The notes beneath the pieces were generated by a model. That model was not told the origin of the DNA. It worked only from the letters and a program-made list of their open reading frames with translations, and ran no database searches. DNA of 64,000 nt from Pegea sp. RAD2-039 (taxonomy: Eukaryota; Chordata; Thaliacea; Salpida; Salpidae), in contig JAQGEQ010000272.1 of NCBI GenBank assembly GCA_034620365.1, forward strand, positions 434,001 to 498,000. The letters run 5' to 3'. The position numbers were made by a program, and so were the translations under genes. This document shows positions 8,083 to 61,900 of this stretch, piece by piece (the stretch's first letter is position 1; each line of letters opens with the position of its first letter).

Positions 8083-11000
8083 ATGGAAGATAAAAGTGAT
8101 GAGGATCTGGTAAACAAAAGACGCGAATATAAATCAAGGCAGGCTCGTAAAAATGCTCTTCGAGTAAGATGTCTTTTTATCTTTGGTAAATTAGTAAAGA
8201 AGTTTTTGAAATAGGAACTTAATCAATTGGGAAAAATTGTTGATATTGAAGCTCAGAGCAGAAAGTTTTCTCCTTCAACTGATGATTCTAAAAATTATAA
8301 AAAAAAAGAGAATGATGAAGTTGAAGAGTTTTTTAAGGTGTAGTCATTTATTTACTTTTTAGTTTCCTAATTTACTAACTGAGAATTTAACTTTCTTTTT
8401 AGTCTAATTCCACTAATGAAGGTTCAATTAGGTTTGTTGAATTTTTCCACATAATTCATTCTTTAATCTTTTTGTTTCAAAAGTAGTGGAAGTAACTTTA
8501 TGGAGTCAAAAATGTTTGAAGAAAATAAAACAACCAAGGTAGAAAGTATTTTTTAATGATTTTAGAAAAGATTTATTCAATTTTTCAATTTATTTCAAAT
8601 ACAGAACTCGGAATATTATTTAACAAACAACATACCAACAGAAAACTTAGCAAGTGAGTTATCAGTTGTTAATTCTTTTGTTTAAATTATAATTTCAGCA
8701 TCTTCAAATCAACCTTCGAATGATAAACTGACAAGCATCATGAAGTTCTTAGATCAAGTTGAAAAGAAAGCTTCAAATGAACAACTTCATCATATTGATC
8801 AATCTTGTTGGAAGAAACAGATTAATGAAATTGAAGAAAAGTCTTCTGAAGTAAAGATTGTTTTGATATTTAAATGATGTTATCTGGGCACAAATTAATC
8901 AAAAAACATTTTAACCAAATAGAAGTAAACTTTTAAAAAGGAATTATTATGAAATTTAATAACTAATTTATAATAATGTTGATTATTAATAGTTAACAGA
9001 CAGATAATAAAATATAAATTTAATTACCGAAAGATTTAATACAGTTGTTATCATAATTATCAAATTATAAAAATCAAATTGATTAAAGAGGAAATTAATA
9101 AAATTTGAAACACATTCCCTGTTGCTAACTTATTTTGTTTCTTTAACTAAAAAAGATTTTGCTTTTAGATGACACAAGAGATGTTGAAAATGAAAATGAG
9201 TTTTGAAGAAAAAACTCGAAACGTTGACTTGCTCGAAAAAGCGTTGGTACGTCAGCATATCTTGTGATATTTATTGAAAAAATTTACTTTGATGAAATTA
9301 TTGAATTCAAATTGAAGTAGAAAAAAGATCTCAAAATATCCTGGAAGGAATTCCAGTCTTATTAGGATTTTCTCACTGACCTTTGACCCGTGTTTGCCCG
9401 CGTGGTTTTCTGATGTATTTACAAATAATGACCTTTCTGTTATTGTCCCGGTACCTAAGCAAGGGACAGTGATTAGTGATCGTTTCCTAGAATGTTGTTC
9501 CACATCACCTCTTGTCTTCTCCCTTTTTGACAACATTCTCTGACGGATGACCTACAAGGGACTTTCACAAACCTTTTCTTTCAGACATTTGTACGTTTAT
9601 AGATGCAGTTATAAATCAATTTTCTTAGCTTACTGATATTTAATCTAAGAGATTCTGGGAATCTAACTTTTATTCTCATTTTTATCACAACTTTTTGCCT
9701 TCAAATCATCTATCTTATCAATATCAATTTTATACATTCATCATAAAACTTGTATTCGGCTGATGAGTCACTTCTTCAACTAAACTCCAGAAATCTAACT
9801 GACCTTTTATCAACTTTAGAGTGATCAGAAGATGACTTTGGAACAGAAATCTCAAATTCAGGTTAATAACTTGGAGCGACAACTAAAAATGCAAAAGCAA
9901 CAATATGAAGCAACTATTCAGAGGCATTTGACATTCATAGATCAGGTTGCAATTTTCCATAAAAGTTTGATTTAAATCAATTTAAAAAATAATTTCCAGT
10001 TAATTGATGATAAAAAAGTCCTCAATTCCAAATGTGAAGATTTAGTTAAAGAATTGAAATTGTTAGATGATAAATATCAGCGTAAAATTCGGACCTTAAA
10101 TGATTCCAACTCAGTTGAAGTGAAAAAGGTTTGTGCTTGTTTGTTGTGTAGTTGTTGATGATGCTGTTTGTTGTGTAGTTGTTGATGATATTGTTTGTTG
10201 TGTAGTTGTTGATGATATTGTTTGTTGTGTAGTTGTTGATGATGTTGTTCGTTGTGTAGTTGTTGATGATGTTGTTTGTTGTGTAGTTGTTGATGATATT
10301 GTTTGTTGGGTAGTTGTTGATGATGTTGTTTGTAGATCAAGGAGAATATTTTAGCATCTGAAAAGCTTTATCGGGAGCAATGGGTCAAAGAAAAAACTAA
10401 TCGAATAAAAGTAAATGAAGTTGATTACTTTTCAGTTTGTAACTTCGTTGTTCTTATGCAGGAGATGACAGTGAAAGGTCTTGAACCTGAGATTGAAGCT
10501 TTAATGAAAAGACATAAAAATGAAGTTTCAAATATCAAATCTCAACATGAAGCAGAAATATCGAAGGTAGAAAATCTGATGTTCACATTTCAAAGCTAAA
10601 TTTCATCTTCAGCTTGGAGCTTCGCTAGATTTTCGTTTCAAACAATGGAAAGAAACTCATCAAACCCAAGTAGAAAACGAGAAAGAGACTTACGGACGAC
10701 GAGAAGTCGAAATCGCGAAAGAGAAGTGAATTGAAGATGAAGAAAAGAGTGAAGTTACTGATTTGATCTTTGACAGATTCAAGCATCAACTTGAGATGGT
10801 TGAAATGGATTTCCAGAAAGAGAAGAAGAAGATTTTTGAAGAACTTGAATTTGAGAAGAATCAGTTGAAACAGTGGGCGGTTAAGTAAGTGATCTTCATC
10901 TGATCTTCACTTGATCTTCACTTGATCTTCACTTGATCTTCATCTGATCTTCACTTGATCTTCATCTGATCTTCACTTGATCTTCATCTGATCTTCACTT

Positions 11001-13350
11001 GATCTTCATCTGATCTTCACTTGATCTTCATCTGATCTTCATCTGATCTTCACTTGATCTTCATCTGATCTTCGCTTGATCTTCATCTGTTCTTCACTTG
11101 ATCTTCATCTGATCTTCACTTGATCTTCATCTGATCTTCACTTGATCTTCATCTGATCTTCACTTGATCTTCATCTGATCTTCATCTGATCTTCACTTGA
11201 TCTTCATCTGATCTTCACTTGATCTTCATCTGATCTTCACTTGATCTTCATCTGATCTTCATCTGATCTTCATCTGATCTTCACTTGATCTTCATCTGAT
11301 CTTCACTTGATCTTCATCTGATCTTCACTTGATCTTCATCTGATCTTCACTTGATCTTCATCTGATCTTCACTTGATCTTCATCTGATCTTCATCTGATC
11401 TTCACTTGATCTTCATCTGATCTTCACTTGATCTTCATCTGATCTTCATCTGATCTTCACTTGATCTTCATCTGATCTTCATCTGATCTTCACTTGATCT
11501 TCATCTGATCTTCACTTGATCTTCATCTGATCTTCACTTGATCTTCATCTGATCTTCACTTGATCTTCATCTGTTCTTCACTTGATCTTCATCTGATCTT
11601 CACTTGATCTTCATCTGATATTCACTTGATCTTCATCTGATCTTCACTTGATCTTCATCTGATCTTCACTTGATCTTCATCTGTTCTTCACTTGATCTTC
11701 ATCTGATATTCACTTGATCTTCATCTGATCTTCACTTGATCTTCATCTGATCTTCACTTGATCTTCATCTGATCTTCACTTGATCTTCATCTGATCTTCA
11801 CTTGATCTTCATCTGATCTTCACTTGATCTTCATCTGTTCTTCACTTGATCTTCATCTGATCTTCACTTGATCTTCATCTGATCTTCACTTGATCTTCAT
11901 CTGTACTCTTTGTAGGAAGGAGAATGAAGTTGAACTGCTGAAAACTCAACTTCGGGGTAGCACAGAGACTTCAGCCGCTCAAGTCAAAGTCAACTTTGAT
12001 AAAAAGCTTTTTGAGATTACTTCTGATCATGAAGATGAGATGAAAAGGATGAGGAGGAGACTGGAAGCCGAGAAGACCGCTTGGCAGGAAACTTATTCTC
12101 GAAATCAGGTTGGTGTCTGATCTCTAAATGAGATTGTTGATGAGTCTGATCTTTAGGAAGCAATCTTGTACCAAAAAGAAAAAGAGTTTCGAGAAGTTCT
12201 TCGCTTAGATCGCGATAAAGAGATTAATCTGGTTGTGAGGAAGTTGGAAGAAGAAATGCAATCTCAACGAGAAGAGTTGGAGCAAAGCGCTGAGAACAGG
12301 TTGAAGAATTAAAAAAATCACTGTAGCGCCATCTAGCGGATGAAAAATTTCTTAAATCAGTATCCGCAAGGTGGCGCTCAAACACGTGTTAATTTATCCA
12401 TTTAAAATCAAACTTAAAATATCATTATTTTTATCTTGTTTCTAAATTTGATGTTAACTTTAACAGAATCAAGAGAGTGAAAAAGAAATATGAATCTGAG
12501 ATAAAAGATTGTGAAAAATCTGAAGAGGAACTTCAGGTGATCCTCAGATTGAAAATTTATTCAAATTGATGAAATGCTTTCAGGAAAAATATGTCTCTCT
12601 CAAATCTGCAGTTAATGATCTTACTGATGAGAATTTGAGGTTAAAAAGCTCTTTGAAATCAGCTCAGATTCACATTGATCAACTCGAGCAAGTTTGTAAC
12701 TTCCTAAATTTTAACTTTTTTCTCAACTTTTTGATTTGACAGAAAAATGAGAAGTTGAATTTAGAAAGATCAAATATCTCAGAGGTTGTCAGGAAAGAGT
12801 TTGCAGATGAGATTGATCAACTGGAAGATGAGTTGAAGCAATGTCAAGAAGCTCTAAGCAAAGCCAAATTACAATGGAGGTAGCTCATCTAATCCTTGTC
12901 TAATCTTTATTTTCTCTTTGTCTTATACTTGTATGATAGAATGTTTATCTAATCTTTATCTTAGATTTGCCTAATCTCTATTCGATTTAAGCCTGATCTT
13001 TATCTGTTTTTATAGAATGTTTATCTGATCTTCTTCTAATGTTAAAAATAAAGATTTTTTTTTAGAAATGAAGTAGCAGAACTGAAGTCGGTGAATTCTC
13101 AGGAACTATCTGCAGTCGATGAAAGGTAAATGCAAGCTGCAATATTTGCTGCAACATTTGCTGCAATCTTCAAGAAATTTTCATATTTCATAGAATTCGT
13201 CAAATGATGGAAAAAAAAGAAGAGACTATTTTACAGTTTCGCTTGAAATGTGAAGCAGCCTGTAAAAGAGCTGATCATCTAGAAGAATTGTTTGAAGAAC
13301 AACGAAATAAACTTCTCGCTCCATCTGTCAAAAGCATCAAAAAGAAATGA
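8083..13350 (+). CDS. CEP131: CEP131/AZI1 centriolar satellite and cilium protein
   Basis: CEP131 is a coiled-coil protein of centriolar satellites and basal bodies needed for cilium or flagellum formation. Twenty exons join in frame: 8083-8163, 8215-8337, 8403-8431, 8487-8538, 8605-8653, 8699-8850, 9169-9246, 9820-9945, 10000-10128, 10336-10410, 10462-10566, 10613-10725, 10777-10884, 11916-12108, 12157-12299, 12467-12536, 12584-12691, 12743-12879, 13066-13125, 13194-13350, giving 695 aa. Family signatures: CWKKQINEIEEK; TVKGLEPEIEAL near residue 301; ENRIKRVKKKYESEI; and a C-terminal KRADHLEELFEEQ followed by Pro/Ser and a basic end. Nearly the whole protein is heptad-rich coiled coil. It is shorter than human CEP131 (about 1080 aa): the long N-terminal region is missing, or its exons lie upstream and were not seen. 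Exons 12/13 use a 51-nt intron that removes an apparent in-frame stop. Identity is confident; individual small exons 3-5 less so. Confidence 0.85.
10136..10335 (+). repeat. 27-bp minisatellite filling CEP131 intron 9
   Basis: About seven tandem copies of a 27-bp unit, GTTGTGTAGTTGTTGATGAT plus ATTGTTT, run from just after the 5' splice site to the acceptor. The last copy ends in GTTGTTTGTAG, which is itself the 3' splice site. Both strands are open in one frame (VCCVVVDD-type and HHQQLHNKQ-type peptides) only because 27 is a multiple of three; these are not genes. Confidence 0.9.
10891..11902 (+). repeat. 11-bp satellite, 92 units, filling CEP131 intron 13
   Basis: The array is 1012 bp, exactly 92 x 11 bp. 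The units GATCTTCATCT and GATCTTCACTT mostly alternate, giving a 22-bp higher-order period. Occasional variants are TGTTCTTC, GATATTC and one GATCTTCGCTT. It begins immediately after the donor GTAAGT and stops 13 nt before the acceptor TTTGTAG, so the intron (10885-11915) is essentially repeat. Confidence 0.95.
12326..12377. promoter_or_regulatory. Pair of divergent CTCF-like core motifs
   Basis: Inside CEP131 intron 15, GCGCCATCTAGCGG (12326-12339, minus-strand core CCGCTAGATGGCGC) and CCGCAAGGTGGCGC (12364-12377, plus) form an imperfect inverted repeat with a 24-nt spacer. Both match the core of the bilaterian CTCF consensus. They stand out against the AT-rich intron. Occupancy is unknown, and an inverted repeat of a small element is an alternative explanation. 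Confidence 0.45.
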
Positions 13351-16300
13351 AAAAAAAATTTGATAAAAATCTGAAAAAAACGTTTTTTTTTGGAATTTAT
13401 CAAAATTGTTGTCTTATTAATTGGATCAATGTTCATTTATTCTTTTTTATTATTCTTCTCAAAAATCGTTTAAAAATCTTTGTATTTTCTTTTTCAAATA
13501 AAAACTTACTTGTTTAACTTGCTCGGCAAACAGAAGCTTGTTTAGCAGTAATAAATTCAGATGGTTTGTTTCAAAAAAGAAAAGAATAATGTGAAAACCA
13601 CATTTTTATCAGAACTTACTTTTCATAGAAGTAAGTTGGTTAAAACTAATTATTTAACAAGATTGATTTGAGTCCACGGTGTTAGCAGTCACCTTTGCAC
13701 AGAAAAGTAAAAAAATGGGAAATATTTAATGGCAGCAAAAAATGCGGAACAAAGTTTGTTGATAACATCAGAAACAAAATGATTTCACTTCCTTAAATTG
13801 TTCCTGTTATCTCTGCAGTGAACCTTTTGAGTTTCTTTCATACAATTCCTAATGAACCAATCACAACTAGAAGGTTTTTATCTCAGATTTCCAGATCCTT
13901 GTACTTGAACTTATTTTCGATATTCTTTGATATTCACATCTTGCGTTGATACCAGTAAACACATTTTGTTAGTTTCATCTTTTGTAACTATATCTAGTTT
14001 GTTCGCTTTTTCTTATATATTTATTATTATTGTATTCTATAATTTTATTACTTGACATCGTTTTTTGCATAGAATATTGTTTCAACATTATTTAATAAAG
14101 CCAAAAACATGACAACTATATTTATTTAGTTTATGCTGAATAATTTTCATTTCTTATAATAGATTTAAAAACCAAAAAAAATGTCTCAACTAAGATTTTA
14201 TAAATTTTTTTTCACGAAAACAAGCTGAAATATTTTTTCTATGTTAAATTTAATTCAAAGTTCTGTTATTATTTTCAAACTGTCAAAGAAATCTTGTTTT
14301 CGAACTCGTTTTAAACTAAAATCTGAACATTTTCAAAAAATAATGATTTTTTTACCAAGTAATTAACCAAATAAATAAAGTTTACCACAAAGTCAGATGA
14401 AACTCAAACGAAAAATAATATCTTATCAAAGATACGATCTTCATCTGATGATTGTTGCTAAAAACATTAAAATTATTTTATGAAGTCAAACAAGTTGGGT
14501 GAAAACCTTTTCAATGAAATGAAAATTCAAATTGTTTGCTTTTAAATATAAAATTTTATTGTTGAAGTTATTTATCAATCAAATAAATCGTAATTACCTC
14601 AAACTATTAGTAGAATTTCATTTTACAGGTTTCACAAACGTTGTTTTCTAACAACCACGTATTTCTAACATATAAACAAATCATTTAACTATAACTGTTA
14701 ATAACGATTTTTCAACATTTCATTTTAGATTATAGTTTTATTACAAATCTCTCTTTTATTAAAAAAAAATCTATTTTATTTTTATAAAGCATCATAACAA
14801 TTTATTAAAGTTTATCAATCAAACATAATAATGTAGTTTAACAACTTAAAATTCAAAAAAATTATTTTTATTTTTTGTTGTATTAGACTTAAATAGAAAC
14901 TTGTTATTTAAATTTGTTGTAAATCAATTTGATAGAGTTTATTTCTTAAAATTCTAAATTATGTGTCGCAGTTCATCAAAAATATGACAAACTCTATAAC
15001 AATAATTTGCATAACTATCAAAAATATGAATTTTGTTTTAAAAGTCCTCTAGTGATAGAATTTGTTTCCAAACTTGAAGATGCTGATGAATTATGATCGT
15101 GCATGTCTTTCAAAAAGGGATTATAACCGTCAGATCGTTGTGGCTTTGAACATGTTCAGCCCATAATCTACCATCACTTTTTTATAAAAGATGTCAATTT
15201 AACATGAAAAATGTCAAACTTTTGCTCGTTATAAGAAACAATACTTAATTTTTCTGACTAAAAATTGCGTAAATTTTCTGATAATTTTATGCTTTGCAAA
15301 TTTAGAAAGACACAATGGTTTTATTTCAAACAATTAAAAAATATCTCAATTTCAACAAAAAACAGTTTTCTCAATTACAAATTTCAGTTCCTAGAAAACA
15401 AATGAGAAAAGAAAACAAAATCTAATAGTTACAATCAATGTACTTCTTTGTAATAACTTAACAAAACTGAGACAGAATTCATGAAAGCCAAATTGGCTAA
15501 TAAAACAAAACCCAGTAAACAGTTTGACAAGATATACTTCCTTAACTTTTTATATAAAAAAATAGAGTTAATAAAGTTATTAACTAAAGATAAATTTATT
15601 ATTTATTTTATTATTTATTTTTACAACATCAAGACACATTTAATATTAATCTGAAGAAAGAAATTCTGAATTTTGCAATCATCTGATGTAGTTATCGAAC
15701 CAAAGAAAGTTTTGCTGATCTTTTAAAACAAATTGATTTTAATTGAATATTTTAACTTCAGAAAAATTTACATTTAGTTGTTAAAAGAAGAAAGCCACAA
15801 GTAGACAAAAGAGTTTTTACTTATTTTTTAATTTTTATCGTCTCAAATTTTTTATTAATTATTTTAAAACTTTTTTCAACAATTTATTGAACAAATATAC
15901 ATTATGGTTGATTATCGACTAGTTAGATATTCTTATTAATATCAGTATAAACTGATTTCTTTTGTTATCAAAATAATATTTTTTGGGGTTGTTGTTTAGA
16001 TACTTTTGCTTTATACTCGTTTGTATTTAGTAATAATATAATTAAAAACCATTAAAAAAAACTTCTAATGAAGATAAATTACTTAGCTAATTACTTTAAC
16101 TAGTTATTATTATAGAAAAATTTTCAACATTTTTTAATCAAGTTTCTTTGCTTTCTATTTTTTGTATATTTGCAAAAATATTGATAAATTTTGCATATAA
16201 AAAAGTCAGATTTACAACCAACTTGATTTGAAAATCAACTTTTACAAAACTATTTTCTTAATTCGCTTGGTTCCTTTTTTACAAAAACACAGAAGAAATT

Positions 16301-17024
16301 TCAGTGAATTTTTTAATAAAAGGTTAAAAGTCATTTTTAACAAACTTTTTATTTAAATTGCTTTTGAATAAGATAAATTTCAACAATTTTATATAATAAA
16401 TGTTCGGAGTTAAAAGCTATTAGTCATTAAATCTTTTTTAATATTCATAGAATATACAATTACAAAATAATTTTTCATCATTTGGTAATTAACTCTAATA
16501 AGTTAATTCTATTTTGTTTGAAAATAAGATAAACTAGATAAAAGATATCAATACAATAATTGAACAAAATGAAAAACATATTTTCGATTCAATCATTTTG
16601 ATCTAATTTATAAAATTTTAATTTTATTTGTAACTTATTGCTATTTCATTTTTACTTCATCTTATTTATTTCAATATAAATAAGTATAATTAAGTCAGTA
16701 TGAATTTTAATATAATTATAATCAACTAAATTTTTTCTGTTAATAATTCGTCAATATATTTTGCTTAGATAACTTTCGAATACTTAATACAATTTTTTCC
16801 AAAAAAAAACATTTTAAATGTTTATTCTTGAAATCAAATATAATAAAACAGCTAACTAATAAAGTGCTAATAAATATTGTAATATTTTCACACAAAAAGT
16901 TATCTAGATTTTTTTAAATTGTTTGAACACAATTAACAAACCTTGATTTCTAAAATATTATAAAATATTTTCAAAAAATCTTTCATGATAAATATAAATT
17001 CTCTAACAGCGAAATATTCTGTTG
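13351..17024. other. Intergenic region between convergent genes
   Basis: CEP131 (+) and the O-fucosyltransferase-like gene (-) converge on this 3.7 kb. No gene was recognised. A minus-strand patch near 15030-15140 is briefly open (GYNPFLKDMHDHNSS and neighbours) but lacks convincing splice sites and was not called. The rest is AT-rich spacer. Confidence 0.4.
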
Positions 17025-20000
17025 TCAAGAATTAATTGTAGATGCTTTTTTAGTATAGTTATTAACTAGTCTTGTGATTGTCATATCAGAGGTCCCATTA
17101 ATTGAGGTCTTTTTGAAATATCTTGCAATTCGTACATTAGTTGACCAGCTTGAATAAATTGAACGAATAAAAACCTGAGAATTTCAAAGAATATGAACGA
17201 TGTAATGAAGATGTTAAAGTATATTTGCCAAGAAAGTTAACATCATTGTTAGATGAAATTTCTATAGAAAAACTCATTTAACAGGTTTACTCACGAGATT
17301 TGAAAAGTAATTCTTAAAAACTATTTTGTGTTCATAAATAGTACTCTCTACTTCACAATCTTCGAAAATGCATTTTTAAAATATTTCTAAAAGTCTTACG
17401 TCACTAATGGAACATATCTCCATTTCCAATTGAGCAATTATATCAGAGTAAGCCTGGATATAATCGTCACAGTTTCCAACTACTTGTTGGTTATCTAAAA
17501 ACTGCTCCAGTTGAGTTGATGTAAAATAATTAATCTTTATTCTGCACAAACAGAGTTGATTAATTGAAAATAGATATGTGGTCATTAAACACAAAATTAA
17601 TTAAAGTCTGACAAAATTCTTGTCAGTAAATACAACTTTTACGAGTTTAAAAAGATTAAATTATCAAACATTTTCCTAAAAGTACTACTTTTGAAATTTT
17701 CATCTTTTAAGATAACTTATTATTATAAAAACTAAATTTTAATGAATAAACTGATCTACCCATCTATAGTAGGTAATAGATCTTTGAATAGCCAAGAATG
17801 AGTAGATTTAGGAGCCGCGAGATAAACATTCATCTCATCTTCAGGAAACAGATTATATTTGCTCTTTAATTGTACAAGACTTTTAGAGATGACTTCCGGT
17901 CTTATACTTCTGATAACTTCACACATTTCTTCTAAGTTTTGATTAGGTTTTTTCCCTTTTCATGTAGAAGCATTTATGTCATAGTATTTGCAAAAATTGT
18001 TTAAGTTTAATCACATTATTGAGTGTTACAGATAAACTTTATTAAATAATTAGAATTAGAATAATCTGTCAAATGATATTTCGAATTATTTTCAAACAAA
18101 AAACAGATACTTACTATGTTGAGGGTTTCCTCCTTCGCACATAAAGTTAACAAAGTCATTTAAATCGTATCTCCAATGAACAGCAACAAAAGCTTTTCCA
18201 TTAAACTGATTTTTGACAAATTCTTGTGCAATGTTCTGATAACAAACAAACGGTTCAATTCTAATAATCAAATTAACAATTTGTTTATTTATTTTAACTA
18301 GAGCTTATTTATAAGCACCTAAAACAATTTTTGATAAGTATTTTTACATCAATATAGCTTAAGGGTTTATTAAATTCTTAAATTCGAAAATATTTTAACA
18401 ATTATTTATTGCTACATAAACTTTAAAACAAAAATCGAAATTCAGTTAAAATAAAGAAAATATTACAGAAAAATATTTGGGAACTCCCGTCATTTCATCA
18501 ATCAACATTTTCAGATTGATGTCACTGAGGGTCCTAGAACCTCTGGATTGAATTTCTTCGAATCCAGGATACTAAATAGATGTTTGAAAAAAAGTTAAAG
18601 ATTTTGAATTTGAAGAGCATCAAAAGAAAAAGAGAAAAAAAGAATTGATATCGGAAGTTGATGATCAGATGTTGATGATCAGATGTTGATGATCGGATGT
18701 TGATGATCGGATGTTGATTGTAATATTAAATTTTTATATTAAATTAATGAAATAAATATTTTACATAAAGTATTTGAGGCTTATCCAACCTTCTTATATT
18801 CTTTAGTTTATCTAAAGAATTTAAAAGTTGTCAAAATAAAACAATCGAATGCTTTATATAAAAAGCTCAATGTAGATTAAAATTGTTTTGGAAAAATAGA
18901 AAATATAACAAAAGTGAAAGATACAAGTGAAATGAATATTATAAAAGGTTGATTATTCAAATAATATTGAAACAAGTAGTCCTTAGAGACTGCTAGTAAA
19001 AATACTATTTGGGTTTTTACACTTTCAAGCCTGGTAACTGGTTTAAGAAAATTTTTACCGCAATTCGATTTTTTGGAGGCGTGAAGTTGTCAAGCTCTCG
19101 AAACGGAAAAGCATAAAAGACGTGTCTTTTGGTTGTTTTAAAAATCTTCTTTAAATCTGATTGTTTGCTTGAAACATGATAATTCTTCTGTGGAGATTTA
19201 GGAAAGACTTCTATCTGTTAATAAAATATTTGTTGCTTCTTTTCCAACAAAGTGGAAACTTGATTTTTGCTCACATTTTTATTGAACAAGTCAAGATGAG
19301 TGATCTTTTCTGCTTGTTTCAGTTCTTCAACGAAGTATTGTTTTAAATGAGTCCCAACAAACATCGCATCAGGTGAAGACTGATCAATAATTTGAAGATA
19401 ATCACTTAAACTGATGACTGATAGGAGTTTTGTGAATGACGATACGTCAAATCTATGATAAAAAATTTGATTTTAAAGCTAAAAAATCGTTCCAGACTGA
19501 ACAAAAAGGGAGAAAATTCAAACTTGTCAAGTCATCTAATCGACTTAAGCTGAATAAGCTTGACTTAAATTTAATCAATAATTGAAAGTTTAGAAAAGAA
19601 CTGAAATTAAGTGCAATAAGTAAAGATGATTTGATTGTTGTGTCTCTAGGGGGAATGATCAATTTTAACGAGCTTATGCGAGAAACATAACGCAAATGGG
19701 CATTAAAAAATCAAGTTTCATATTCCTATGATTTTATTTTAATCTTTAGTTTAGTTTTTATTATCGCGTCTACCGCAATTTTTGTTTGTAATTTTGCTTC
19801 AAGTTTTAACAAATTTAAAGTCTTAGTAAAGAGTTATTATCATTTCAACAAAAATTCATTTCAACAAATATACATTTCAACAAGTATACATTTCGACAAA
19901 TATACATTTCAACAAATATATATTTCAACAAGTATACATTACAACAAGTATACGTTTTAACAAGTATACATTACAACAAGTATACGTTTTAACAAGTATA

Positions 20001-21583
20001 CATTTCAACAAATATACATTTCGACAAGTATACGTTTTAACAAATATACATTTCAACAAATATACATTTCGACAAGTATACATTTCGACAAGTATACATT
20101 TCAACAAATATACATTTCAACAAATATACGTTTCAACAAATATACATTTCGACAAATATACATTTCGACAAGTATACATTTCGACAAGTATACATTTCGA
20201 CAAGTATACATTTCAACAAATATCCATTTCAACAAGTATACATTTCGACAAGTATACATTTCAACAAGTATACATTTCGACAAGTATACATTTCAACAAG
20301 TATACATTTCAACAAGTATACATTTCAACAAATATACATTTCAACAAATATACATTTCAACAAGTATACATTTCGACAAGTATACATTTCAACAAGTATA
20401 CATTTCAACAAGTATACATTTCAACAAATATACGTTTTAACAAATATACATTTCAACAAGTATACATTTCAACAAATATACGTTTTAACAAATATACATT
20501 TCAACAAATATACATTTCAACAAATATCCATTTCAACAAGTATACATTTCAACAAATATACATTTCAACAAATATACGTTTCAACAAATATACATTTCAA
20601 CAAGTATACATTTCAACAAGTATACATTTCGACAAATATACATTTTAACAAATATACATTACAACAAGTATACGTTTTAACAAGTATACATTTCAACAAA
20701 TATACGTTTTAACAAGTATACATTTCAACAAATATACGTTTTAACAAATATACATTTCGACAAGTATACATTTCAACAAGTATACATTTCAACAAATATA
20801 CATTTCGACAAGTATACATTTCAACAAATATACATTTCAACAAGTATACATTTCGACAAGTATACATTTCAACAAGTATACATTTCGACAAGTATACATT
20901 TCAACAAGTATACATTTCAACAAGTATACATTTCAACAAATATACATTTCAACAAGTATACATTTCGACAAGTATATATTTCAACAAGTATACATTTCAA
21001 CAAGTATACATTTCAACAAGTATACATTTCAACAAATATACATTTCAACAAATATACATTACAACAAGTATACGTTTTAACAAGTATACATTACAACAAG
21101 TATACGTTTTAACAAATATACATTTTAACAAGTATACAAATATTGAGCTTTTTTAGGTGAACAACAATAAACTAACCTTACAGCCGGGTCTACTTGAACT
21201 TTCACTGACTTTGTTTCATTAACATCAGTAAAATGTTTAAAAAAAATTGGTAGAACTAAGGTTCTGTTTAAAGTGATTGCAATATAGGCAGCTTGTCGAA
21301 GTCCAAATAATTGATTTGTTGGTCCATTATATAACCAGGGTAAAATAAAACGATTATTTCGTAATCTAAAATAAGGTTCAATTTTTTTTCTTTTGTTTTC
21401 GCTTAGAATTTCCGAAGTATTCTTCCAAGGAATACATTGTTTTGTTACTACTAAGGAACCTCTTGTTGAAGTATTTTTCATTTTGCAATCCAAACTAAGT
21501 AATAATTGAACGCTGATAAAAACCAGCAAAAAAATACAAACAGTTTGAATTTTATTTTTTCTTATTAACACTTTATCTTTCAT
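17025..21583 (-). CDS. GDP-fucose protein O-fucosyltransferase-like enzyme
   Basis: A predicted type II Golgi/ER membrane glycosyltransferase of the O-FucT superfamily. Eight exons on the minus strand: 21177-21583, 19275-19452, 19059-19214, 18467-18571, 18115-18235, 17760-17931, 17400-17541, 17025-17174, all phase-compatible, 476 aa. It has a short basic N-terminus and one transmembrane anchor (about residues 14-31). The donor-binding N-terminal motif is GPTNQLFGLRQAAYIA (87-102), the counterpart of the GGxNNQ loop of POFUTs. AFVAVHWRYDLNDF (297-310) carries the Arg equivalent to the conserved HxRR Arg. VYLAAPKS and a late SSWSTNVRIAR match the C-terminal GDP-fucose site block. It is not clearly POFUT1 or POFUT2; plant-like and invertebrate O-FucT relatives are closer in feel. 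The acceptor substrate is unknown. Intron 1 (1.7 kb) is largely a 16-mer satellite. Confidence 0.8.
18658..18716 (+). repeat. Short 14-bp tandem repeat in an intron
   Basis: Four copies of GTTGATGATC(A/G)GAT lie in the intron between the third and fourth coding exons of the O-fucosyltransferase-like gene. The unit shares the GATGATC/GTTGATG vocabulary with other intronic arrays in the window. Confidence 0.85.
19840..21138 (+). repeat. 16-bp satellite (~81 copies) in O-FucT intron 1
   Basis: About 1.3 kb of head-to-tail units with consensus ACATTTCAACAAGTAT. There is systematic variation at TTTC(A/G)AC and AA(A/G)TAT, plus an ACGTTTTAAC subtype. The array ends 38 bp before the exon-1 donor at 21176. 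Three minus-strand open stretches of 60 codons inside it (peptides such as MYTCRNVYLLK) arise because 3 x 16 nt returns to frame; they are not genes. Confidence 0.95.
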
Positions 21584-24560: not shown

Positions 24561-24633
24561 GGTCTTGAATGTAGTGACATTGGCTTTTCCTCGGCAAACG
24601 TTTACTTTTATAGAGATTAAGCGAAAGATATAA

Positions 24634-48678: not shown

Positions 48679-49108
48679 GTTATGTAAAACATTCTTTGCC
48701 TTGAATAAATACTAACATCTAGCAGAAAATATCAAAATATTTCTATTTTTGAAGGTTTTTTTATGGTTATTTTTATTACAAAACTTTTGTAAATTATTGT
48801 TAAGATTTTTGTGTATACAACTTGAAGCTGGTTGAAATAAACTATATTGTCATCAAGTAATTAGCAATAAAATAAAACAACTTTTCTAGTTTCTTTTTTG
48901 GTTTTGCTTCAGGCGAAGCATTATTTTTCAAGTTGAAATCAATTTAATAGAAATTATTTATAAAAAAGTTACTCTTTTAAAAGGTTTTTAAAGACTTTTA
49001 TTAACTGTATTTTTTATATGTTACTTTAATCTGTTTTGTTTATAGACTTTGTGTTTTAATCTATTGAATGATTATTTTATGTATTTGAATTTCATTAAAT
49101 AAAATTAA
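48679..49108 (+). repeat. Long direct repeat, copy B (~0.43 kb)
   Basis: The longer partner of 45806-46187, with an extra ~48 bp (around 48949-49000) absent from copy A. The two copies are in the same orientation and 2.9 kb apart. Confidence 0.85.
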
Positions 49109-53100: not shown

Positions 53101-54391
53101 CATAAACTTGTTTTGACCCTGGTTTTATAATTTAGCTTCAGTTCAAATTTTACTCTATAGTGAGTTCAATTTTACAAGAATTTTTTAAACACCTAATGCA
53201 GAATGTTAAATAAAGATTAAGTGTAAATAAAAATGAAATATTACCATTAATTGATATAAATGCTGCATTCTATAATATGTAAGATAAAAAGAAAACGAAA
53301 AAGTGAAAAATATTCGATCGATTTTATAATTTTCAGTCATAAATACATTAATTTAAACTTTTCAAGTCTTATTTCTCACAAAATAACACATCTATTTTAA
53401 ATTATTGTTTATTTTTTTGTGAAAGTTTGTCATAATTATGTAAGGCAGTCAGCATTTAGTAAAGGCTTTCCGATTTCCATTTACAATGTTTATATCAATT
53501 CATATTTATCTATTAACATATCATTTAAAAGATAGAGCAGTTTTTTTTTCCGAGAATAACTTTTTAACTTCTTGTTGTTAACTGTTTCAATAAAACAAAC
53601 TTTTTAGTAGAACTCGGCATTTTCATATGTCAATTTTAATCAAAATGTTGTCGAAGATATTTATAGCAAAATTAAGATAGCTAAGCAATGGTACTAATTT
53701 TGTAGATTTCAAAAACACTTCTTAGTAAAAATAAAAAATTTTCAAAAGTTTTTGATATCATAATTTCAACAAACTATTGCAATTGAAGCATGTATTTTGG
53801 GTAAACGATTATTTAATATTTTGAATCACGAATATCAAACTTCTTACAATTTTTTTTTTATAAACTCTCAGACACAAATTACATCTCATTTGATGACTAC
53901 TTGTTCAATTTGAGATGAACTACTCTCTAATTATTAACTTTTTTTTAATTCAAATATTTAAATATTTTTGATTTATATTTCACATTATTATATTTTAAAC
54001 ATTTAAACAGAAAGCTAAGTTGCATTTTATAGTATTTAATAGAAGTAATGATAGAGATTTTTTGCAAAAAATGTGTTTTATTTAGAAAGATAGAATTTCT
54101 AAATCACTTAATGTTGATGACTAGCTAAATTTTAAAAAGTTAATTTTAATCAAACAATTATAGTTTTAAATTTTAGCTTTTGGCTAATGTTATTTGATAT
54201 CATTATTTATAGTTATTTTTAAATATTTTTATAAAATATTTTATATAATATGTTATAAAGTTTTAGAACTTTAATGTTTGAGTTTGTATAATAATTTATA
54301 TTAATAAGCTATTAGAAACTAAATTAAAGGCAAATGTTGAAAATGTTTTAAAATTTTGATATTTATTTTGTTGAATAGTTAAGAGACAAAA
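53101..54391. other. AT-rich spacer upstream of the first CoREST-like gene
   Basis: About 1.3 kb with no recognisable gene or repeat; it presumably includes the promoter of the gene at 54392. Confidence 0.4.
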
Positions 54392-56142
54392 ATGCAAATC
54401 TATCAGTCAAAATATCATTACCTTCTTCCTGGACGAAAACGAAATCATGACAAGATTGAAGAATATAAAGGTTTTTAAAAAAGCATCTTATAATTCTGTC
54501 TGTGAAAGATTTTCCTTAAATACAATTATCAAAATATTTATATTTTAATTTATTATTTTATTATACATATAAATTGTTATTAGTTTAATAAAACTATAGA
54601 TTTCAATATTTATTTTTGCATATTTTTCTAAAATGAACACTTTTTAAAAATTAGAATCTTATTTTGACTTGAAAATTATATTTTTGATAATTCAATAAAA
54701 CTAATTATTTATTAATATGTTTTAAAATATTGTTTACAAGTACTTATCAAAACTTTCAAAGTTTGTTAAGCTTAACATTTTTGAAATTATTTTAATAATA
54801 ACCTCAGAAACTCAACAAAGTTATTTTATTTTAGATGCTTGTATAAAAGTTGGTGAACAGCATCAAGCAGTAATTCCTTCTCTTAACACAGGTTACATTT
54901 CACAATTTCACAAACTGATTGAATTAAAAACAAAATTTTAGATTTAGAAGCAGCAAAACTAGAAGAAGAACACCCGAGTGTTTTATACTGGGAAATGTCC
55001 GAAAAATTAGATCCAATTAAACGTTGGTGCTAATTAACTCAATTGTTAAAACTTTATAAACAATTTTTACAGTCAAAACATATTGTGACGAGGCTGCCAA
55101 GGAGCATTCCTTTGATATGGACCAGGCTTTGGGAATATTATACTGGCACAAGCATAATATAGCAGATGCCAAAAAAACTATGTTCAAGCTTGCTTCTATT
55201 GCTGGTGATTTTTTCGTAGAATTTATCTTTCTTTTTTGTTGTTTTTATCAAAGCTAACAATTTCTAAAAAAATGTTGTTTTCGATTGAAAGTTGACCTTT
55301 AACCTCACAGAACAATGGACTCAAGAAGAAGAAGACCTCTTTAGACAGGCTTTTGAGACAAATGGAAAACAGTTTCACAAAATCAAAGAATTTGTGAGTT
55401 TTATGAATGACTTTTTCAATATTTTGATCTTTTTTTTAGCTGCCAGGTAAAAGTGTCCAGGACTTAGTTCATCATTTCTATAAATTAAAAGCGAAGAGGA
55501 GTAAAGGTTCTTGGGTAGATTGGGTCGCGAATAAGAATGAGAATAACTCCAGCTGCAGGTTTCTTTATATTTTTATATCTTTATCTTTTCTTTCAACTTT
55601 TTCTTTTTTTTAGTTTGGATGGTGAAGAAGAATCGAGTTTTTCAAAAAAGAAGGTGAATAATGTTAAAACCATTTCCAAATCTGACCATTTTCGCCTCTT
55701 AATTTTTTAAATTTCTAGACAAACGGAAAAATCGGATTTTCTGGTTTTGGGGCTGGAGGTAAGTGAAAAAGGGGTTTTCCCAAAACAAAAACAAAATCAT
55801 TGAAATTGTTCAGATCGAATCACAGCAAGTGAACTTGATGAAGCGTCGAGAAGTCTTTGCGGCGATCTCAGTTCTTTAAATACTATTGATAAGGAAATTA
55901 TCAAATTAAAGAATGAGGTGAAAAATGATCTTTCTGATCTTCATCTTTTATCTTTGAACAATTTGAAGGTCCAGCAGCAAAAGCAAGATAATTTAGGAGA
56001 AGAGAAAGAAATTAAAGAGATTTTAGAAAGTATTAAAAATAAGTTTTCTCAAAAAGAAGAAGATCAAAGTGAGGACTTCTTATGTTGATTTTTAAGTTAT
56101 TTCAATTTTGTTGTTACAGCTTTAAAAGAGGAAGAAGATTGA
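54392..56142 (+). CDS. CoREST-like ELM2-SANT corepressor (copy 1), no SANT2
   Basis: RCOR/CoREST proteins scaffold HDAC1/2 through ELM2-SANT1 and bind the demethylase LSD1 through a linker helix and SANT2. Eleven exons: 54392-54470, 54835-54891, 54942-55022, 55073-55204, 55311-55393, 55440-55558, 55614-55653, 55719-55758, 55814-55917, 55969-56068, 56120-56142, giving 285 aa. The ELM2 domain contains IKVGEQHQAVIPSL and MDQALGILYWHKHNIADAKK (human: EQALGMLFWHKHNIEKS). SANT1 (about 118-165) contains QWTQEEEDLFRQAFETNGKQ and LPGKSVQDLVHHFYKLK. A Lys/Ser-rich segment and a coiled coil (ASELDEASRSL to KNKFSQKEED) correspond to the LSD1-binding linker. The protein then ends: no second SANT. Exon 10 could start 6 nt later. 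The gene lies 2.8 kb upstream of a related gene in the same direction. Confidence 0.85.
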
Positions 56143-58956
56143 ATCCATTGAGATATAAGATTTTATACTTTGCTTAAATCCTTTGTGAATTTTTTAAAGG
56201 TTTTTTTCGCACACCTTCAACCTAATCGTGTTTCGGTTTTTTACGCATTTCTCAACTAAACAGTTTTTAGAAAACTTTGTGTGATGAGTCTCAGCAAAGG
56301 GAAATACCCAAGTATGTAGGCCTCAATTGGTCAGTCGAGGATTTCTGAAGATACTTTTGGTAAAACTTTGCTTGAAGAAACTACCTTCTGAGGATGATAG
56401 GACCTCAAAATCGTCAATTTTACAAATCATTTTGCAAAAACAAAAGCTAAAGTTGTTCTTTTAGTTTTGGAAATTAAAGTTTTGTGAAATAATCAAGTTT
56501 TAGTTTTTTCTTTGTTTAAATGAAAACTAAAATCTTTTACAAAAATATTAAAACTCACAGAAAAAAAACTCTTTAAAAAGTGTTATTATTTGAAAGCGAT
56601 TAAAAAACAAGAAAACATTTTATCTAAAAAGTGAGAGAGGATTATGAGCAAAATCTTTGCAGATCAAAGCTTGCCCACGAAAAAAGTTTCTTAGACTTTT
56701 GTTGAAAAACTACTAAATGTTGAATCGTAGTAAAAAGAATTTGCTCAATGATTAATTTTCTAAATTAAATCTCATATTTTTAAGCAAGAAAGAAACTTTA
56801 GAATGAAAATCATAAAAATATGGCAAGTTAGTTGTGAACTGTTCCATCTTGTTTGAAATATTTAAAAGATCAAAACTAACTAGTCAAGAACATAAAAATT
56901 AAAAAAGTTCAATTAACCAAATATCGTTCAATTCAGCCGAACTGATATTTACAATAAAATAAGTTTTGAAGTTGACTTTGTTCTAGCCCAAAATAAAGAC
57001 TGTAAACTCAGAGAAAGGGGTTGTCGGCTCAGTACCCTTGCTTCTACCAGCATCAACCTTTTCTCTGATTTTTGAAACTTGAGGACTTCTATTCAGTTTT
57101 TCAGCTATAAGATATTAATTCTATTTAAAAGTGATTCAATGTTGTAAGTTCAACTTCTGAAGATTTACTGCAAAGCTGCATTATTTTCTTATGGTAACTT
57201 GACTGCAAAATTTGGTTCTTCTAACTAAGCAAGATCAGAAACTGTACTTGCATCAGCTGTCATAAGATCAATAAATGATTTTATTAAAGGTAATAGCAAA
57301 TTCATCTTACCAATAAAACGCGTAATAAAACGATAATTCTTTAGTTAAAAAAATATAGTTATTAATATTGGAGTTATCACCAATTTAAAGCAAAACTAAG
57401 TATGTTTCTACCATGATATAATAGTTGCTACAATTTAATGTAGAATTTCTATTACCATTTCATATATGAACCATTTAAATTTATTCAAATGAAATGTAAT
57501 CAAGAAGTAAAAAGACAATTTATGATTATAAGGCAGAGTATTAAATAAATCTACATATATTTCGATCGTGCATTCAAAATTGTTTAAATTATAATAATAC
57601 TATAAATTCGTTATCTAAACAAATACACATTTAAGAAAATATTTCGAAATCTGTAACTATTAGATTTGAATATTCGTTGAGAACCCTGATACTAAAAGCT
57701 TGCTTTCTTCGGTAAATTTTATGGTTCAACAAATATATTAATATCGTTCATTATTTTAAGTATTGAAGACTTGCTACTTAAATTTACATATTTTAGTTTA
57801 ATTTTTATCGACAAGAATATTTAGTAAGATGTGAATGTTGAATATAAAAAATGAAAATAGCTTTTCCAGAAATTTAAGAGAAATTGACAAAAAAAGGTTT
57901 TTGAGGTTAAAGGATTGAAGATTAGGAGGATAACTTGAATTTTGTAAACATGTATTGCTAATTTTAACTTTTCTCTTTAATTTTTTGTGGTTTTCTACAA
58001 TTTATCAAGTAGGTTTGCTAAAATTAATTTTCAAAACATTATGTTATCGACTTTGTATCTATTAAAATTGTTATTATTAGTTAAGAGTCAATTTGATTTT
58101 GTAATTATTTAGATTTATCTATTTCTTATCAAGTTTTTATTTTTGATTTTATTGATAATTTTTGAGATTTAAGTAAAAATTTCCAACTGTTTTCAAGTTT
58201 GTTCGAATTTAGAAATATTATTGCTTCAACAACTTTTCATTTGATTTTCTCATTTTATAATTATTATTAAATTTATTGGATTAATTGTTGTTTTTTCTGC
58301 GATTTTTTATTATTTATCAATCAAACTTTTCAATATATTTTCATTATCGTTAAAAATTAGAAATTAGTTAAAAATTGAATTTTTAGAAATAAATAATTCT
58401 TCAAAAATTATCATCCAAAATTGATGAAAGAAAATTTGATTTATCAAAAACTTTCAACTTAATTTTTAGCAAAAATATTTCCAGCTTTTAATGAATCATT
58501 AATTTTCACTTCCTATTCCTTTAAGTTAAAAATGAAATTCAAAAAGTTTATCTTACAACTTAATAAGGTTTTTCTATTTTATAAAAAGTTGAAAAACTTT
58601 ATAATATTGTTAACAAATTTTTGAAGCAGATTTATCTATAAATTTTTGGAGCTTTTTTTACTGAGTTTTCATCAAAGTTGGTTTATGAAGGATTTGAAGA
58701 AGTAATTTTCTTTTAAAGCTATGAATAAAGGTTTCTATTTCAAATTGTTGGTTTAAAAATTTCGACAAATGACTTAAAAAATATTTAGATAATCTTTTAA
58801 AAGTTTAAAAATCTTTTGAAATAACTTCTGGAAAATTTATAAATCTGATCTAATTAAAATTTTTTATATTTTCAACTTTTAACAAAACTTAATCAGAAAC
58901 AATTGAAAGCACTCAAGCGTGACTACCAACTTTTATTATATTTTTCAACTTTTTAG
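56143..58956. other. Spacer between the two CoREST-like genes
   Basis: 2.8 kb, AT-rich. The first part is the 3' region of copy 1. No open frame or repeat was recognised. Because copy 2 seems to start inside an exon preceded by an acceptor, its 5' exon(s) may lie here unseen. Confidence 0.4.
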
Positions 58957-61900
58957 CAAAATGCAGTGTCGGGTTACAAACGAAAACGTCATGTCACAAA
59001 AGCGATATTTTGACGTCATCAGTCGCGCTAACAGCCGATCAATTACAAATCTTAGAGCATCGGACTAATATGAACAGATCTGAGCTAGTAGATATTTGTT
59101 ACCACCACAAAACCCATTTTCTTGACAAGTACGAACTCTTGCACGCCACCAAGTGTTGTGATCCTTTCAAGAAACATCGCAAGACAGTGAGAAAGGGACT
59201 GTTACGCGTGACACTCAATATCTGTCGACGTCACTACTATCTTCCGCTTCTCGCTCCCGGAAAAAGGATTTGTAGAAATTGTAACAAAATTCTCAATGAA
59301 ATTTCACAAGACAACAACTTGGAACCAACGAAGCGGAACGATCGATTACGTCATCCATTAGTTGCTAACAGGTTGGTTATCAGGTTGTCACGTGATCTAG
59401 TGATGAAGTCATCTTTGTAGGGTCTCACTGCGAAGTGGAACGCGATCTTCGACAAGGATGTATAAACCGAAAGTTGATGAGTTCAAAAAAACAGCTGGAG
59501 TCGATCGAAGGTGACGTCATCAGCGTGTGACGTCATCAGTGATTGATTTGTGTGTTTTTTAGTTTGAAAAAAGAAGATGAAGCAGAAGAAGAAGAAGAAG
59601 AAGCAGATATTGGTAAGATCGTACTGATGTTGATCTTAATGATGTTGATCTTACTTATGTTGATCTTACTGATGTTGATCTTACTGATGTTGATCTTAAT
59701 GATGTTGATCTTAATGATGTTGATCTTGTATGTCTTTAGAGCTTCCAAGAATTCGAATGAGAGTTGGTGAGATGTATCAAGTTAAAATCCCATCGCTTTC
59801 ACAAAGTAAATCTTTATGACGTCATCGTCGCGAAGCTCTAACTTCTTCTGTCGTCAGCTTTGACATCAGGTTTTTACGCAAATGACGTCATCTCCCGCGA
59901 GACGTTACTGTGGAAACCAGACAACCAATCAGCAGACGAAGGTGGTTTTTGTTGATTTCATTTCAAATTTTTTTTTATTTTTTTCTTTTAGTGACAAAAT
60001 ATTTGGAGTTTGCTGAAAAATTTCATAAATACAACGAAGAGCAAGCTCTTCAATTCCTTTATTTCCATGAGAAGGATATTGGAAGAGCAAAGAAAGAGTT
60101 AAAGAACCAGATTCCGTGTCCAGGTACTCAACTGATAACACCTGATGGCGCTGTTGTTGATGAAGATGATTTTTTAAAGATGCTTGGACAAGTGAGGAGA
60201 AGAACCTTTTTGAACAAGCTCTTAGATGGATCGGGAAAGACTTTGCTGCTATTCAGAAAGTGGTTAGTGTTGACTGGTTGCTGGTGGATGTTAAAGTGTT
60301 GACTGGTTGCTGGTGGTTGTTAAAGTGTTGACTGGTTGCTGGTGGTTGTTAAAGTGTTGACTGGTTGCTGGTGGTTGTTAAAGTGTTGACTGGTTGCTGG
60401 TGGTTTTTACAGTGTTGACTGGTTGCTGATGGTTGTTAAAGGGTTGACTGGTTGCTGGTGGTTGTTAAAGTGTTGACTGGTTGCTGGTGGTTGTTAAAGT
60501 GTTGACTGGTTGCTGATGGTTGTTAGTGTTCACTGGTTGCTGGTGGTTGTTAAAGTGTTCACTGGTTGCTGATGGTTGTTAAAGTGTTCACTGGTTGCTG
60601 GTGGTTGTTAAAGTGTTGACTGGTTGCTGGTGGTTGTTAAAGTGTTGACTGATTGCTGGTGGTTGTTACAGTATTGACTGGTTGCTGATGGTTGTTAAAG
60701 TGTTCACTGGTTGCTGGTGGTTGTTAAAGTGTTCACTGGTTGCTGATGGTTGTTAAAGTGTTGACTGGTTGCTGGTGGTTGTTAAAGTGTTGACTGGTTG
60801 CTGGTGGTTGTTAAAGTGTTGACTGGTTGCTGGTGGTTGTTAAAGTGTTGACTGGTTGCTGATGGTTGTTAAAGTGTTGACTGGTTGCTGATGGTTGTTA
60901 AAGGGTTGACTGGTTGCTGGTGGTTGTTAAAGTGTTCACTGGTTGCTGATGGTTGTTAAAGTGTTCACTGGTTGCTGATGGTTGTTAAAGTGTTGACTGG
61001 TTGCTGGTGGTTTTTACAGTGTTGACTGGTTGCTGGTGGTTGTTAAAGGGTTGACTGGTTGCTGGTGGTTGTTAAAGTGTTGACTGGTTGCTGGTGGTTG
61101 TTAAAGTGTTGACTGGTTGCTGATGGTTGTTAAAGTGTTCACTGGTTGCTGGTGGTTGTTAAAGTGTTCACTGGTTGCTGATGGTTGTTAAAGTGTTGAC
61201 TGGTTGCTGGTGGTTGTTAAAGTGTTGACTGGTTGCTGGTGGTTGTTAAAGTGTTGACTGATTGCTGGTGGTTGTTACAGTATTGACTGGTTGCTGATGG
61301 TTGTTAAAGTGTTCACTGGTTGCTGGTGGTTGTTAAAGTGTTGACTGGTTGCTGGTGGTTGTTAAAGTGTTGACTGGTTGCTGGTGGTTGTTAAAGTGTT
61401 GACTGGTTGCTGGTGGTTGTTAAAGTGTTCACTGGTTGCTGATGGTTGTTAAAGTGTTCACTGGTTGCTGGTGGTTGTTAAAGTGTTCACTGGTTGCAGT
61501 TCCCTCATAAAACCATCTCAGAAATTATCAAATATTTCTATTTGTGGAAAAATAAAACCAAATTTATAAAGAAAAAAGCGATTAAAGAGGAGATACGAAG
61601 GTGAAAGCAGATCATGTCACTTACATGCTTTTCATCAATTATTTTTGCAGTGAACCAGTTAGAAGCAGCATCGAAATTTACACAAAAAAAGAAAAAAAGG
61701 TAAAAAATCGAAATTTGTCAAAAAATTAAAAATAAAATTGCAAATTTTTAAGAAATTCAAATTGGTTGGAGAGAAATCTCAATATAGTGATTCAGGTTTG
61801 TGATTGGTTGGCTGCTTGTGACGTTATTGTTACGTCATCATTTACGTAGCAAGTAGATTGACAAGTGAAGAAGCTTCAGCTGTGTTGAATGATCCAGGAT

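Follow-up and report, generated by a model that had tools for sequence, protein, structure and literature searches.

The window, a 64,000-nt stretch of one contig of the salp Pegea sp. RAD2-039, contained a CEP131-like gene, two tandem CoREST paralogues and, on the minus strand, an O-FucT-like gene (Table 1). Four introns, two in the CEP131-like gene and two in CoREST copy 2, consisted of tandem repeats nearly from end to end, with units of 27, 11, 15 and 29 bp as the preliminary description had stated, and both TRF and the gene model bore this out. All four were called by a splice-aware HMM that was given no array information. This model, of our own build, was seeded with 57 long ORFs and self-trained on the window and 25 random loci; the first self-training round was too permissive (478 genes in 314 kb), and a stricter round was used. 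The surrounding introns were indeed close to 50 nt, as had been described: the others in the CEP131-like gene and CoREST copy 2 were mostly of 46 to 79 nt (exceptions, one of 351 and one of 186 nt), and the median of the 345 HMM-predicted introns was 53 nt.

Table 1. Introns of the window discussed in the text, with the tandem arrays located by TRF.
Gene	Position	Strand	Length (nt)	Array	Array nt	Remarks
CEP131-like	10129..10335	+	207	10137-10333, 27 bp x 7.3, 94%	197	phase 0; acceptor GTTTGTAG unit-derived
CEP131-like	10885..11915	+	1031	10890-11903, 11/22 bp, 46 x 22 bp	1014	GTAAG donor, array, then 12 nt ending in TAG acceptor
	12880..13065	+	186	decayed 11-mer array, CTAATCTTTAT-like		TRF scores 42 (period 11) and 63; read by eye
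O-FucT-like, intron 3	18572..19058	-	487	18645-18718, 14 bp x 5.4	74	junctions hand-set
O-FucT-like, intron 1	19453..21176	-	1724	19841-21138, 16 bp x 81	1298	junctions hand-set; array AG-free in sense
CoREST copy 1	55394..55439	+	46			phase 0; site homologous to 60263..61499
CoREST copy 2	59613..59739	+	127	59617-59727, 15 bp (GATCTTACTGATGTT) x 7.4	111	
CoREST copy 2	60124..60179	+	56			ordinary intron; AAG acceptor; HMM
CoREST copy 2	60263..61499	+	1237	60266-61497, 29 bp x 42.6	1232	phase 0 in SANT1 domain

The 22-bp unit of the 1031-nt intron was made of two 11-mers (TGATCTTCATC and TGATCTTCACT), and the 186-nt intron carried a decayed relative of this 11-mer. The 16- and 14-mers reported for introns 1 and 3 of the O-FucT-like gene were recovered by TRF, both introns being only partly repeat; this gene was missed by the HMM and its junctions were placed by hand. 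As for the names, O-FucT goes back to a weak Pfam match that scored 20.2 bits, below the cut-off of 31.5, while CEP131 found no confirmation, neither a Pfam family nor a PDB chain matching the gene.

The array introns had GT..AG ends joining exons of a single reading frame, and coding frames together with homology marked them as putative spliceosomal GT-AG introns. Translation of the arrays was rejected in two cases: the 27-mer would place a TGA in frame if retained, and protein homology ran across the junction of the 29-mer intron. That splice sites were built from the repeat unit, as had been proposed, held in part. In the 1237-nt intron the array spanned from the donor GTTAGTG, which recurs within it, to the acceptor GGTTGCAG, derived from GGTTGCTG, and in the 207-nt intron only the acceptor came from the unit; the 1031- and 127-nt introns began with a GTAAG donor, and in both 12 nt outside the repeat preceded the exon.

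The CoREST paralogues displayed the same intron position and phase with very different lengths, 46 nt in copy 1 and 1237 nt in copy 2, and the alignment to REST corepressor 3 (PDB 4czz_B) was ungapped across the junction of the latter. An apparent frame change in copy 2 was due to the 56-nt intron placed there by the HMM; the spliced protein matched RCOR without a gap, which ruled out a frameshifted copy or pseudogene.

Similar arrays were found at other loci. The array of the 1031-nt intron had 81 matches on many contigs, with identities up to 93% and some at contig ends (C66:1, C97:9, C222:22). Among nine loci picked by similarity to two arrays, seven were called as introns of other genes, and all seven carried the unit in sense; the strand was fixed by a protein match in four of them (genes for dynein heavy chain, VPS52, CCDC47 and EMP70), while at L037, L040 and L043, which had no protein match, an HMM intron model trained on sense introns could have favoured sense calls. 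Of these three, L037 and L040 were searched and matched no Pfam family, L037 no NCBIfam family either; the Vps52 stretch matched no PDB chain. Protein matches spanned the junctions of five array introns (CoREST copy 2, L036, L038, L039 and L042). Arrays of related kinds were also present outside recognisable genes (L041, L044, C108).

Such scattering could reflect a dispersed 11/22-bp satellite family copied into introns by gene conversion, extrachromosomal circles or template switching, with splicing retaining only the sense insertions. In addition to the many matches, some at contig ends, the window and the unlinked locus L036 shared a 22-bp dimer that differed by one base (93% identity over 396 bp), for which dispersal is a simpler explanation than independent growth. 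However, the units varied by locus (periods of 11, 17, 20, 22, 24 bp and others), the best matches outside the window to its 27-mer and 29-mer were weaker, reaching 81% and 71% identity, and the unit words were common, mostly in sense, in ordinary introns, including introns of normal length with two or three units. We regard dispersal as a possible origin of the arrays, although not a likely one.

The 11-bp unit was polarised at splice-site patterns. Genome-wide, it adjoined a donor or acceptor pattern in 26 cases in sense (9 donors, 17 acceptors) against 9 in antisense (5 and 4), of which we read seven as artefacts; controls with reversed patterns gave zero in all four counts. In 204 ordinary short introns, 7-mers of the unit occurred 79 times in sense and 21 times in antisense, a count that may lean to sense with an intron model itself trained on sense introns. 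The permuted-unit control gave 13.2 +/- 9.4, and none of 300 permutations reached the 79 sense occurrences. These words were spread over 29 introns at 13 of 19 loci. A 49-nt intron at L045 contained two units, and by our own reading of the sequence introns of 45 and 49 nt at L047 and L049 contained three.

The sense strand of most arrays was free of AG. The preliminary description had raised the problem of AGs inside the repeats, which applied to a minority: AG was absent from 10 of the 13 arrays examined, and the others were the 27-mer (7 AGs), the 29-mer (43) and the array of L043 (24). The 1031-nt intron had no AG inside. That an 11-mer rich in T and C lacks AG is by itself no surprise, and the per-base absence of AG was set aside as stand-alone evidence because a repeat multiplies a single draw. 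Counting events instead, none of 96 created an AG against 4.9 expected, the sole such gap among the 16 dinucleotides; the array of L016, in a predicted intron, had one AG-creating event against 1.5 expected. Counted by occurrence, none of 391 substitutions created an AG against 17.8 expected with matched types (12 arrays, the 1031-nt intron being dropped as it gave no consensus at the forced period), but this count overstates independence and the main claim does not rest on it.

Two internal TTTTTACAG sites in the 1237-nt intron outscored the acceptor in use. The score of the donor in use was reached by 7 of 46 internal GTs in the 207-nt intron, 1 of 232 in the 1237-nt intron, 5 of 11 in O-FucT intron 3 and 7 of 121 at L043.

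The arrays might be functional, as polymers of units resembling branch sites and pyrimidine tracts that raise or regulate splicing efficiency. The 11-mer has CTGAT, then CTTC, then AT in place of the acceptor AG, and from the branch-site consensus we take CTGAT to resemble a branch site. A C. elegans minisatellite lies near alternative exons (PMC4039745). Since arrays are lacking from the CoREST paralogue and from nearly all other predicted introns, and different units occur within one gene, a functional role appears very improbable. The branch-point content of the units was dropped as a test because YTNAY, judged by eye, is too loose in T-rich DNA. A further and doubtful idea is that TGATCTTCATC is an intron-building module, in which a donor, n units (n from 2 to about 90) and an acceptor would make a working intron, the unit supplying branch-site and pyrimidine-tract functions without AG; introns would then arise or lengthen as a single splice-competent word changed in copy number.

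Array introns occur across the genome as a minority route, and the window is rich in them; although array matches lay on many contigs, they were rare in random loci. In 25 random 10-kb loci (250 kb), one of the 41 predicted introns of at least 110 nt held a clear array (TRF score of at least 80) and none was wholly repeat, and arrays made up 1.2% of predicted introns against 1.0% of uncalled DNA; these are lower bounds, with genes such as the O-FucT-like one missed by the HMM, and the densities set aside a 113-bp satellite miscalled as intron. The genome-wide mode of intron lengthening that had been suggested was thus unsupported as stated, and the proposed comparison of introns with the DNA outside them gave about equal densities in these loci.

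The near-equal densities would suit neutral minisatellites arising anywhere, some by chance in introns, with a strand bias merely following the T-richness of introns. Against this, seven of nine such arrays were intronic though predicted introns filled about 9% of the random loci, splice-edge matches were 26 in sense and 9 in antisense, and AG-creating changes were absent where those creating other dinucleotides were not. We therefore hold neutral scattering to be unlikely.

In-situ expansion of introns of about 50 nt, filtered by splicing, is the explanation we consider probable. The earlier suggestion that short introns expanded by duplication while splicing was kept agrees with the 46-nt paralogue intron, the array introns in unrelated conserved genes and the two- and three-unit introns of 45 to 49 nt. 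Some short introns apparently grew more than tenfold into head-to-tail repeats. The starting state would be ordinary spliceosomal introns, ancestrally of about 50 nt, whose sense strand carries pyrimidine-rich words (for example TGATCTTCATCT). Such words, some already in two or three copies within 45 to 49 nt, would act as seeds. Repeated tandem duplication of a piece of the intron itself, by slippage or unequal exchange, would lengthen it; the surviving orientation would be that whose sense strand has no AG competing with the true acceptor, and AGs newly arisen inside arrays would be removed. We infer that the introns grew and did not shrink, that duplication was the mechanism, and that selection lies behind both the polarity and the absence of AG. 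On this reading, stuttering would be able to lengthen introns provided that it does not mislead splicing.

Intron lengthening is usually ascribed to transposons. The array introns offer a transposon-free route with visible steps (two, three and tens of units) and a candidate rule for the arrays tolerated in genes, namely a sense strand free of AG; how repeat instability trades off against splice-site choice becomes testable in one genome. Introners are mobile introns, inserted at new sites as near-identical whole introns. Here a unit was common to many introns, but lengths and ends differed, and the one paralogue pair compared kept its intron position.

The array introns are related to the 'sequence stuttering' of avian dot-chromosome introns, with the strand rule and AG avoidance as new elements, and give it a second setting. 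In birds, short imperfect tandem repeats underwent massive local expansion, for which a local origin is argued, and the median intron cover by simple repeats rises from 7% up to 93 (PMC12954441). Introns dominated by imperfect tandem repeats are common to both systems, and a further likeness is that the avian gene PHF2 has none of the exon-edge copies displayed for its relative PHF8 (PMC12954441). The avian introns lie on dot microchromosomes with elevated GC, and exon edges were copied into some of them (PMC12954441), whereas Pegea has an AT-rich compact genome with one unit family at many loci, its arrays oriented in sense and for the most part free of AG. The part of the avian account at hand mentions no strand rule and no avoidance of AG (PMC12954441). 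A local repeat origin as in birds is favoured here by the unit words in ordinary introns, while the 22-bp dimer common to two loci speaks against it.

Other systems share single traits with the arrays. Intronic tandem repeats of Daphnia pulex likewise favour T-rich and CT motifs on the sense strand, but units of 1-5 and 7-8 bp are the intron-enriched classes, those above 8 bp being rarer in introns, and no wholly repeat introns are described in the part of the study at hand (PMC3152781). AG exclusion zones and AG avoidance in polypyrimidine tracts likewise reflect selection against a premature AG upstream of the acceptor, but they are described for the tract close to the 3' splice site or where the branch point is distant (PMC10946897, PMC1431707); here AG was missing from arrays ranging in length from 74 to about 1300 nt. 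CeRep25B of C. elegans resembles the arrays in that 75% of its repeats are intronic, but it has a near-palindromic 24-base unit, clusters on chromosome III with fewer copies on II, and is tied to multiple alternative splicing (PMC4039745). The giant introns of Drosophila kl-3 and kl-5 also contain satellite DNA, but at megabase scale (PMC6508621).

All arrays named in the preliminary description were recovered by TRF. Gene structures were predicted with a splice-aware HMM, seeded with 57 stop-to-stop ORFs (at least 110 codons, little tandem repeat) and self-trained on the window (bases 434001-498000 of contig C264) plus 25 random 10-kb loci (20 + 5) from the 105.7 Mb, 387-contig genome searched. 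The model was blind to the array-intron finding, though the window belonged to its training text, and it called all four array introns of the window exactly (Table). Predicted introns (n = 345) had a median length of 53 nt, with quartiles at 49 and 73 nt and a 90th percentile at 166 nt. REST corepressor 3 (PDB 4czz_B) aligned with the spliced CoREST copy 2 protein ungapped across the 1237-nt intron (E 1.2e-28). An apparent frame change near 60170 in this gene was explained by a 56-nt intron. The array introns of CoREST copy 2 and of four Pfam-supported loci are considered introns with high confidence, and those of the CEP131-like gene (16 predicted exons, CEP131 name unconfirmed) with good confidence.

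The two CoREST copies, arranged in tandem, displayed both a short and an array intron. At one and the same SANT domain site, a phase-0 intron of 46 nt follows FHKIKEF in copy 1, and the phase-0 array intron of 1237 nt follows FAAIQKV in copy 2. The copies also share the preceding phase-1 intron (106 nt in copy 1, 56 nt in copy 2). The intron position thus predates the array; a short ancestral state is the more parsimonious reading, though not a proven one.

Splice sites had been described as made from the repeat unit. This held for the 29-mer intron, both ends of which resemble edited units, but not for the 11/22-bp and 15-mer introns, where the GTAAG donor and the 12 nt preceding the exon are non-repeat. 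According to the trained weight matrix, no internal AG scored as high as the used acceptor in 10 of 13 array introns. Such AGs were found in the 29-mer intron (2 of 42) and in two O-FucT-like introns (6 of 18 and 4 of 14), where they sit in unique parts, since the arrays there are without AG. Internal GTs scoring at least as high as the used donor were present in 4 of the 13 (Table). Two TTTTTACAG sites within the 29-mer array scored above the used acceptor and are possible alternative splice sites.

Sense-strand AG was absent from 10 of the 13 intronic arrays. Since a chance absence is multiplied along with the repeat, distinct substitution events were counted instead of bases (with the shortest period taken for L037 and L040, two of the fetched loci). 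None of 96 events in the 13 arrays created AG, against 4.9 expected from each array's substitution types, and the same count displayed no comparable gap for any other dinucleotide. AG-creating events numbered 3 (2.5 expected) for three arrays lying outside any recognisable gene, 4 (4.1 expected) for the arrays of random loci L018 and L030, whose setting is ambiguous, and 1 (1.5 expected) for that of L016, which is probably intronic. AG avoidance in intronic arrays is thus suggestive (chance about e^-4.9) and not universal. In the open-licence literature, the closest phenomenon found was the "sequence stuttering" of introns that lie on dot chromosomes of birds (PMC12954441); stranded short repeats are known from Daphnia introns (PMC3152781), and AG avoidance near 3' splice sites from several eukaryotes (PMC10946897). 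Judged by titles and abstract beginnings, none of the open-licence papers listed reported whole introns of sense-only, AG-free minisatellites.

A whole-genome DNA search with the intron-13 array yielded at least 81 matches, 40 of its 297 candidates having been scored; the 29-mer array gave 26 including itself (others at 65-71% identity), and the 27-mer gave relatives at 81% identity or less. Nine matched places, picked as short and contig-internal (seven for the 11-mer, two for the 29-mer), were fetched and submitted to the HMM with the gene prior relaxed from 1e-8 to 1e-4. Seven of the nine arrays were placed in introns, with the unit in sense in all seven; no clear gene was found around the arrays of L041 and L044 at this prior. 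Protein matches spanning the junction fixed the strand of L036, L038, L039 and L042 (for the last, the best PDB chain was labelled CFAP57 and the next DNAH5). For L037, L040 and L043 the strand is that of the HMM call, made with an intron model that learned from sense introns, and no Pfam family was found in the L037 and L040 proteins. Dispersal of a satellite, subject to the same splicing filter, is a rather unlikely source of such arrays; growth in situ combined with that filter probably produced the array introns.

Array introns and other repeats (window positions unless a locus or contig is named)
Feature	Position	Unit	Array share of intron	Particulars
CEP131-like intron	10129-10335	27 bp		GTs at or above donor score 7/46
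CEP131-like intron 13	10885-11915	11/22 bp
CoREST copy 2 intron	59613-59739	15 bp
CoREST copy 2 intron	60263-61499	29 bp		GTs at or above donor score 1/232
O-FucT intron 3				GTs at or above donor score 5/11
Fetched intron	L036		69%	EMP70
Fetched intron	L037		85%
Fetched intron	L038		93%	Vps52
Fetched intron	L039		75%	CCDC47
Fetched intron	L040		99%
Fetched intron	L042		95%	dynein stalk
Fetched intron	L043		94%	GTs at or above donor score 7/121
Sites in 29-mer array	60404-60412, 61011-61019			TTTTTACAG
Palindrome in introns	59511-59562, 59806-59857			TGACGTCA
Palindrome within array	63586-63651			TGACGTCA
Contig-end arrays	C66:1, C97:9, C222:22, C247:348	11-mer
Identical array ends	C50:581455, C198:70213			53 nt
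Satellite	L030:7461-10000 (C132)	113 bp		22.5 copies, 93%; continues past locus
Array	L018:8626-10000 (C28)	16 bp, GTCACGTGGTTAGCTG		86 copies; continues past locus

Some 11-mer arrays lie at contig ends, as expected of either a repeat-broken assembly or a subtelomeric satellite. The identical array ends on two contigs represent either a haplotype copy or a segmental duplication.

Polarity beside splice sites was searched genome-wide as a pair of adjoining 11-bp units no more than 30 nt from GTAAG or TTNCAG. Raw matches amounted to 26 in sense (9 donors, 17 acceptors) versus 9 in antisense (5 donors, 4 acceptors), with 0 for reversed-pattern controls in each of four pattern classes. With one intron counted twice (C1:5593782-5593830) and the C50 and C198 matches identical, sense matches represent about 24 distinct introns, two of them known before. 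Among antisense matches, C17:72718 fell within the L036 array and those on C25 and C116 overlapped sense donors read backwards (by coordinates); one on C8 and two on C260 were unit variants, and C1:1802638 was CTGTAAGTC on the opposite strand (by reading). Matches on C52 and C267 remained after this sifting, which was uneven, all antisense matches being judged singly and 8 of the 26 sense ones inspected (the window intron, L037 and five small loci).

Words of the unit also occurred in ordinary introns. In 204 such introns of up to 110 nt at random loci, 7-mers taken from the 11-bp unit numbered 79 in sense (29 introns, 13 loci) versus 21 in antisense (13 introns, 9 loci); permuted units gave 13.2 +/- 9.4, and 0 of 300 permutations were as high. 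Densities per kb were 6.8 on the sense strand of these introns, 1.2 per strand in uncalled DNA, and 2.8 (sense) and 3.6 (antisense) in exons. The five small loci (L045-L049) were taken from sense acceptor matches: L045 held two units in a 49-nt intron (HMM call, gene prior 1e-3), L047 and L049 three units each in introns of 45 and 49 nt (read by eye; the HMM did not call them so), L046 a long array extending into its acceptor, and L048 one or two units. TGGTCGAGGAGTT words were found in 11-12 ordinary introns (window and random loci), almost exclusively on the sense strand, and perhaps stem from a recently duplicated gene. The palindrome TGACGTCA was strikingly common in introns and recurred within arrays; GACGTC was found in 16 of 252 short introns versus 0.6 expected.

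A clear array is absent from most of the long introns predicted. Together, the 25 random loci (250 kb) encompassed 41 predicted introns of at least 110 nt, none wholly repeat and one with an array scoring 80 or more (L016; 260 of 393 nt, intron open at the locus end), versus 4 of 13 by the same measure in the window. Arrays covered 4.7% of predicted intron bases versus 1.0% of uncalled bases at random loci, the former falling to 1.2% without 813 bases of the L030 satellite, an HMM miscall. These figures are lower bounds because the HMM misses genes and called some arrays otherwise (L011 and L025 as exon; L018, at its locus end, uncalled). Protein kinase genes, apparently intronless and with full-length domains in a single open frame, were also observed in dense clusters on C265, C260 and C75.
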